The notes beneath the pieces are model-generated. The model searched no databases. It saw only the letters and a list, made by a program, of their open reading frames with translations, and had not been told where the DNA came from. The translations under genes and the position numbers were made by a program. A DNA stretch of 64,000 bases from Natronococcus occultus SP4. Its GTDB lineage: Archaea > Halobacteriota > Halobacteria > Halobacteriales > Natrialbaceae. The stretch is from NCBI RefSeq assembly GCF_000328685.1, contig NC_019974.1, positions 1,789,001 through 1,853,000 of the forward strand, written 5' to 3'. Below are positions 42,659 to 44,505 of the stretch, piece after piece; the stretch's first letter is position 1; each line of letters starts with the position of its first letter.

Positions 42659-42954
42659 TCAATTCGTATCATATTCGATGAATCGAACGTGAACTGTGAT
42701 ATCAAACTCCGTTTGCTCGTTGATGCGTTCGTTTAACGCTGCCGGCAACTCCGGATTCGAGTCACCAACTGGTTGTTCAACCGTGATAACGACACGTTCG
42801 GGTCGTTCGAGCCCGATCCCGCTTTCGAGCAACACCTCCGTTTCGAGGGGGATACCTTCTTCGAGGAACAGTTCAACGCCGAGTAGATGGACGTCCTCGT
42901 ACTCTGATGACTCGAGGACGGCTTCCGATTCCGTCTCGATGGTGCTTTCGAGAG
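42659..42954 (-). pseudogene. C-terminal fragment of the DUF389 gene, cut off by a MITE
   Basis: Read on the minus strand from the element edge, the frame gives about 95 residues beginning ALESTIETESEAVLE, containing EQPVGDSNPELPAALNERIN, ending FIEYDTN and a stop at 42659-42661. This is the soluble C-terminal domain expected after the membrane part of TIGR00341/DUF389 proteins. Joining it to the upstream part after removing the insertion plus one 10-bp duplication restores 442 codons exactly. It lacks its own start and is unlikely to be made. Confidence 0.85.
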
Positions 42955-43177
42955 CATTCGTCTTTAGCTAAGACTGCTGGTTATACTCCGTGGCGGAATT
43001 ATGCTTAACGGTATTAGTCGAACGAATCTAGCGGCTGAACCGCTGATGCGGCTGAGAGTCAACAGTACAGATAATGCAGAGACTGCTTTTTCGTCCCGCA
43101 GCGGTCGTATGCTGACGAAATCTACCTCCAAAACGGTGTTATTCGGTATTACTCTGAGTATTAGCTAAAGACGGATG
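42955..43177. mobile_element. MITE-like element, 223 bp, with 17-bp TIRs and 10-bp target duplication
   Basis: Left inverted repeat CATTCGTCTTTAGCTAA (42955-42971) and right TTAGCTAAAGACGGATG (43161-43177) match at 16 of 17 positions. Flanking CTTTCGAGAG occurs at 42945-42954 and 43178-43187, a 10-bp target duplication (12 if the adjoining TG is counted). The inside is AT-richer and codes for no transposase, so it must be mobilised in trans. A 10-bp duplication fits IS4/ISH8-group transposases, but that link is inferred. Confidence 0.88.
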
Positions 43178-44217
43178 CTTTCGAGAGTAGTATGTTCGTA
43201 CGATGCCCAGGTGACCCCAATCAAGAACGTCGACAGAACAAGGATCGCAACCGAGAAGACGATGATATGTCGTCGAACTTGCTCCCGTGCGACTCCCGTT
43301 TCTCCCCAGACATGTGGTCGGTAGCCCATAACCCATAGCGTCAGGAGTCCGGTGATATTGATAGCGAGTAGATTGACAAAAACGAGGATGATCGATCCGA
43401 CCGCAGCGTTAGGGGTCCCCCATGCAATCGCGATTCCAGCCGCTGCGGCAGGCGGAATTAACGCTGCAGCGATCATGACACCGACCAGTGCGGCCGAGAT
43501 CCCAGTTGCGAGGCTCAGCACGCCCGCAATTCCTGCTCCGAGCGCAACGAACAGCGAGAGGAGATCCGGAAGGAGTCGTTCACTGACTTCGTCGATCTCG
43601 ACGATATCGATGCCCGGTGGGACGAGAACCATCGATCTCGCGACCCATGCGAACGCCGCGGCACTGACGATTGCGACGATGACACCCAGTGCTTGATACT
43701 TGAGTCCGTTCCAGAAGAGGTCATTTTCGTTGAGAACGGTTCCAACGCTGGCTGCGAGCGCCGGCCCGATCAACGGTGCAATGACCATCGAACCGACCAC
43801 GACAGCGGCCGAATCGAGTAACAGGCCGGCCGTAGCGACGACTGCACTGAGCAGCGTCATCGTCACGTAGATCGGTATCGTCGAAATGAGACTGTTCGAC
43901 TCAACAGATAATTCGTGGCGACCAAGACGCTCATCGCCCAAGATCTCGCTTGCGTATCGCCGCTTGAGTGCACCGAACTGACGCGAGATGATCGTGTCTG
44001 CGGTGACGACGACCGTGTGATCCTCCTCATCAAGCCCTGCGTCCCGCAAGTCATCCAAGACGGTCTCGACTGCATTCGTCGGGAGTGTAAACGAGACGAG
44101 GACGGCGTACTCACCGTCGTCGGTCGGAACGACGGTATAGTCGATAGCTTTCGAGTCGAGTTCCTCCAGAACCGGTTCACGCGTCTGCGCTCGGAGTGAA
44201 ATTTCAATGTGGCGCAT
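43165..44217 (-). pseudogene. DUF389/TIGR00341 membrane protein, truncated by MITE insertion
   Basis: The 350-residue open part has an N-terminal ACT-like domain (MRHIEISLRAQTREPVLEEL) and the DUF389 membrane core, with segments such as VVGSMVIAPLIGPALAASVG and GVMIAAALIPPAAAAGIAIA. The frame runs into the right TIR and stops there (TAG at 43165-43167), replacing the last 90 or so residues with IRL. The lost C-terminal domain survives beyond the element. The membrane part may still be made. Family function is unknown. Confidence 0.88.
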
Positions 44218-44361
44218 AGGGAATCAGTCACCAGAAAACGTCATTAAGCACGGGTAGACATGATCTCTCGCTACAAGTTACGTACAGCTCGCTAAAGGCG
44301 GCGAGCCAAACCGAAACACCCTCCCTGGCCCGAGGACGCGGTCGCTTCGGTCAGCCGTCTT

Positions 44362-44490
44362 CGTCCTCGTCTTTCTCGCGGGTCACGTTCGTTCCCCGCT
44401 CGCTTTTTCGAGGACGCTTCCCTCACTCCGTTCAGTCGCGTCCTCGCCTTTCTCGCGGGTCACGTTCGTTCCCCGCTCGCTTTTTCGAGG
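44362..44490. repeat. 52-bp direct repeat, 77-bp period
   Basis: Two copies of a 52-bp sequence (44362-44413 and 44439-44490) differ at one base and share the core CTTTCTCGCGGGTCACG and CGCTCGCTTTTTCGAGG. The copies lie in the 288-bp gap downstream of the rhodanese gene and upstream of the DUF389 gene. No gene is supported in the gap. Confidence 0.85.
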
Positions 44491-44505
44491 GTTCGTTCGC
44501 TGCAC

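Follow-up and report, generated by a model that had tools for sequence, protein, structure and literature searches.

Within the IS4 family, insertion sequences (ISs) of the ISH8 subgroup have CAT ends and 10-bp repeats (PMC2266710). ISH2, a transposase-free MITE with ISH8-related ends, is mobilised in trans by ISH8 (PMC10264941), and the interiors of the Haloquadratum MITEs are unrelated to their helper transposon (PMC3119063). The window analyzed here, a 64,000-nucleotide stretch of the Natronococcus occultus SP4 genome, holds an insertion that can be read in the same terms: we are highly confident that an ISH8-type MITE, presumably inserted by an ISH8-subgroup transposase acting in trans, truncates a DUF389 gene. 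The features concerned are as follows, in window coordinates except for the last.

42659..44217, minus strand: DUF389 / TIGR00341 gene including the insertion (from junction sequence and orthologue alignments)
43165..44217, minus strand: present reading frame of 350 aa, with IRL following native residues 1-347 (from PF04087 and TIGR00341 matches)
42659..42954, minus strand: 3' gene remnant, the C-terminal part including one duplication copy, still open (from orthologue comparison)
42955..43177, plus strand: MITE, 223 bp, ISH8-type ends, no protein-coding gene
42955..42971, plus strand: left terminal inverted repeat, CATTCGTCTTTAGCTAA
43161..43177, minus strand: right terminal inverted repeat, minus-strand reading CATCCGTCTTTAGCTAA
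42945..42954, unstranded: target site duplication CTTTCGAGAG, left copy
43178..43187, unstranded: target site duplication CTTTCGAGAG, right copy
G000:C1:2550249-2551550: intact ISH8-type transposase gene on the same chromosome, candidate helper

On the minus strand, the gene, which codes for a membrane protein, starts at 44217 and meets, in order, CTTTCGAGAG from 43187, the element (43177-42955), CTTTCGAGAG again (42954-42945), and its original stop at 42659. Removal of the element and one duplication copy (1559 - 233 = 1326 bp) leaves 441 aa plus TGA with zero internal stops in the rejoined frame, and the first-pass annotation was thus correct in proposing an interrupted gene whose frame is exactly restored by excision. 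Judging from the uninterrupted relatives described below, such a loss would recreate the ancestral DUF389 gene. The ORF in its present form ends at a TAG supplied by the element's terminal repeat, three codons inside the element, and its product lacks 94 C-terminal residues, the last fifth of the protein. Repeated GC-rich stretches (cgcgggtcacgttcgttccccgctcgctttttcgag) were observed upstream of the gene at window positions 44350-44500.

The dimensions first reported for the element (223 bp, 17-bp inverted repeats with one mismatch, and a 10-bp duplication) agreed with ours in both coordinates and sequence. The 17-bp repeat lies within a looser repeat of ~33 bp and, with the duplications counted in, the inverted repeat extends to 42 nt at 79% complementarity; the two copies of the 10-bp duplication are identical. 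With zero mismatches allowed, the terminal 18-mer occurs in the 4.31-Mb genome of this organism only at the element's two ends, and the insertion in the DUF389 gene is the one copy of the element in that genome, which makes a repeat misassembly unlikely. Near-identity of the repeats had been taken as a sign of a recent event, yet the copy in Natronobeatus shares the same mismatch, and repeat similarity is therefore no guide to the age of the insertion. Its youth is better indicated by the perfect duplication and by the 97-codon downstream remnant, which has acquired no stop or frameshift.

Uninterrupted relatives of the rejoined protein were identified by tblastn in 14 genomes of the family at 68-74% identity, with full-length coverage in 13 (the remaining one begins at residue 41-42), and their alignments continued beyond the insertion point as far as residue ~440, with at most 2 gap positions per ~440 columns. 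The sequence across the junction is ASYEHTTLES/TIETESEAVL in the window and ASYERATLESEIEAETESVL in the closest relative. The first-pass annotation had itself raised the prospects that close homologues end near 43165 and that the 223-bp segment is common to all relatives; all 14 read through the junction, and none has the element at the insertion point. It follows that the gene was split in the present lineage. A gene that ends naturally near 43165, with the downstream frame a coincidence, would account for the unbroken 350-aa ORF there but is already refuted, both by the nearly gapless passage of the 14 orthologues across the junction and by the 3' remnant, which is 52-61% identical to orthologue C-termini. 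Within the genus, the other eight genomes encode only DUF389 paralogues (at most 55% identity), and the nearest empty sites are for that reason in other genera. Synteny adds no evidence, since none of the six window neighbor proteins searched for within 1.5 kb of the orthologues was matched. Elsewhere in this genome, another DUF389-like sequence (G000:C3:100813-101642) also appears broken, with residues 1-90 and 96-277 matching as separate pieces ~15 bp apart. The insertion in the window is well documented, and its ancestral state is unambiguous.

In profile searches, PF04087 (DUF389) matched residues 144-288 (126.5 bits versus a curated cut-off of 23.9) and TIGR00341 residues 50-329 (146.7 bits versus 94.75); the 350-residue product retains the whole DUF389 domain and the TIGR00341 match. 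The result is a clean C-terminal truncation of the DUF389 protein, and recognizing the 350-aa reading frame as such removes a false gene boundary. The earlier wording that the element "splits" the gene holds for the interruption but overstates the damage, given a product with the entire DUF389 domain. Because residues 1-347 are retained with both matches, the truncated product may still work; the 14 relatives conserve the 94 lost residues at 52-61%, and it is therefore as plausible that the product functions in part or in an altered way as that it has no function. It is possible, if rather doubtful, that the truncation is adaptive or tolerated, such that the element would modify rather than knock out the gene and leave a functional 350-residue protein with an altered or unregulated C-terminus: the intact domain and TIGR00341 match, the early stop within the element, and the weaker conservation of the C-terminal part (52-61% identity to the orthologues versus 71-78% for the remainder) fit such an outcome, but the C-terminal segment is present in all orthologues and in paralogues too. 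That possibility concerns the consequence only and is compatible with an inserted ISH8-type MITE as the best explanation of the element. The label "transporter" given initially should be dropped, as neither PF04087 nor TIGR00341 is a family of known function and none is established for DUF389; no match to the DUF389 protein was found by sequence among solved structures.

The element recurs elsewhere. End-to-end copies were found on a plasmid of Natronobeatus ordinarius (97.3% identity) and on two Haloarcula plasmids (68% identity), flanked by the duplications CATCAAAACC, TATCCATCCC, and GAGCAACCGTTC (the last of 12 bp) at unrelated sites; the nearest copies, at 97.3%, are those of Natronobeatus and Natronolimnohabitans. 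Matches to the element were present in 40 of 392 sampled genomes of the order, many of them to the ends only. The right-end pattern alone, in a scan of named genomes, extended to Halorientalis, Natrinema, Haloarcula, Halorhabdus, Halarchaeum, Halorubrum, Halosimplex, Natronolimnohabitans, Halogranum, and others. Counting copies 170-240 bp long, we recovered 39 distinct complete copies, 24 of 223 bp and 9 of 224 bp; an exact 10-bp duplication flanked 22 of the 39, the DUF389 insertion included. The further copies that the first-pass annotation had suggested looking for thus exist, at 223-224 bp, in many haloarchaeal genera, and because the unit recurs end to end with its own (mostly 10-bp) duplications, the element is far beyond chance. 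The designation MITE likewise stands, given ISH8-type ends, the lack of a transposase gene, and the same unit at unrelated sites. As for viral carriage, phage records gave no match and the right-end pattern was absent from viral contigs.

Several of these copies have features of their own. In the Natronobeatus ordinarius plasmid (L028:569-1513), the annotated end of a helix-hairpin-helix gene lies 13 bp inside the 97.3% copy, and its stop is the TAG of the MITE terminal repeat, as in the DUF389 gene. A 495-bp composite (L058:5806-6300, L068:1501-1995) joins 208 bp of the 223-bp MITE to an unrelated stretch that has GTGCACCAGGTGCAC, an ISH2-like motif, and one 10-bp duplication flanks the whole. 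MITE ends occur twice at L046:500-899, nested or in tandem (224 bp within 400 bp), and a single 10-bp duplication bounds the two sets, which suggests one element inserted into or beside another.

The sole mildly unusual feature of the element is its strictly held length across very diverged copies: 33 of the 39 measure 223-224 bp despite up to ~45% divergence. At 30-40% divergence, interior indels numbered 2.6 per pair versus 7-11 in a control of gene-upstream DNA, a small and rough control; since shared ancestry makes copy pairs nonindependent, this deficit is a lead only. Constant length and scarce indels might be expected if the 223-bp unit were more than a MITE, namely a conserved regulatory cassette or noncoding RNA, but we consider this quite improbable: folding energy was no better than that of shuffles on either strand (z-scores of 0.02 and -0.82), a consensus structure of 35 sequences contained terminal-repeat pairs only, with no internal pairs, and there was no codon periodicity. 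Internal RNA structure was rejected on the folding and consensus results. Hidden coding was rejected as well, as substitutions were spread evenly over the three phases and open frames were not conserved. Within the MITE explanation, there is a modest chance that this is an old haloarchaeal lineage whose interior is selected for exact length rather than being neutral filler between transposase sites; if true, exact length could keep the spacing of protein-binding sites for pairing the two ends.

The parent IS that was to be sought can be named by type: the element ends, CATnCGTCTTTAGCTAA, match those of ISH8-type ISs, and copies of ISH8B, ISH8C, and ISHti13 have the same or nearly the same ends. 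The genome of N. occultus itself encodes one intact ISH8-type transposase gene and one fragment. The intact 434-aa ORF matched PF01609 (9.7e-24) and NF033592 (IS4 family; 1.1e-81) and has YRCRWEVELLFRELK, a match to Y-(2)-R-(3)-E-(6)-K; IS relatives annotated as ISH8B/ISH8C have ~77% DNA identity to this IS. This gene is likely the helper today. Its IS (L035:1641-3036, equivalent to G000:C1:2550240-2551635), the sole intact one of ISH8 type in the genome, has a left end that reads GAGCACTTTAG versus CATnnGTCTTTAG, with the outermost bases lost, and the IS may for this reason mobilise the MITE while being immobile itself. Directly beside it is a 274-aa transposase-like ORF that looks unrelated. 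By its ends and by analogy to ISH2 in the literature, we infer that the 223-bp element was moved in trans by an ISH8 transposase. An ISH8-subgroup (IS4-family) DDE transposase would recognize the MITE through its CATnCGTCTTTAGCTAA ends and, supplied in trans as modeled on ISH8 and ISH2, would insert it into the minus-strand DUF389 gene, duplicating 10 bp of target; the DUF389 product now ends at the TAG in the inverted repeat, without its conserved C-terminal 94 residues.

Insertions of this kind are well known, and this ordinary case should cause specialists little surprise; what is gained is a 223-bp ISH8-type MITE family shown to be spread over many haloarchaeal genera. A description of this family was not found in the literature searched, and ISfinder may already have a name for it. 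The likeness to ISH2 of Halobacterium salinarum (PMC10264941) lies in a nearly identical terminal repeat (CATTCGTCTTTAGTTAAG), the 10-bp duplication, and the lack of a transposase; however, ISH2 is ~520 bp long with a small ORF, whereas the 223-bp element has no protein-coding gene, and there is no interior homology, as BLAST matched only the terminal 18-23 bp. ISH8B, ISH8C, and ISHti13 (ISH8 subgroup, IS4 family) share the outer 17-21 bp and the 10-bp duplications but are ~1.4-kb ISs that encode a DDE transposase, and the MITE interior is not derived from them (~25 bp match at the end). By description, the HqIRS MITEs of Haloquadratum walsbyi (PMC3119063) are similar in being short and transposase-free with a target duplication, and in sharing ends with a transposon while having an interior unrelated to that of the helper. 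Judged on the sequence comparisons, the 223-bp element is a new or unnamed ISH8-type haloarchaeal MITE, set apart from ISH2 by its interior.
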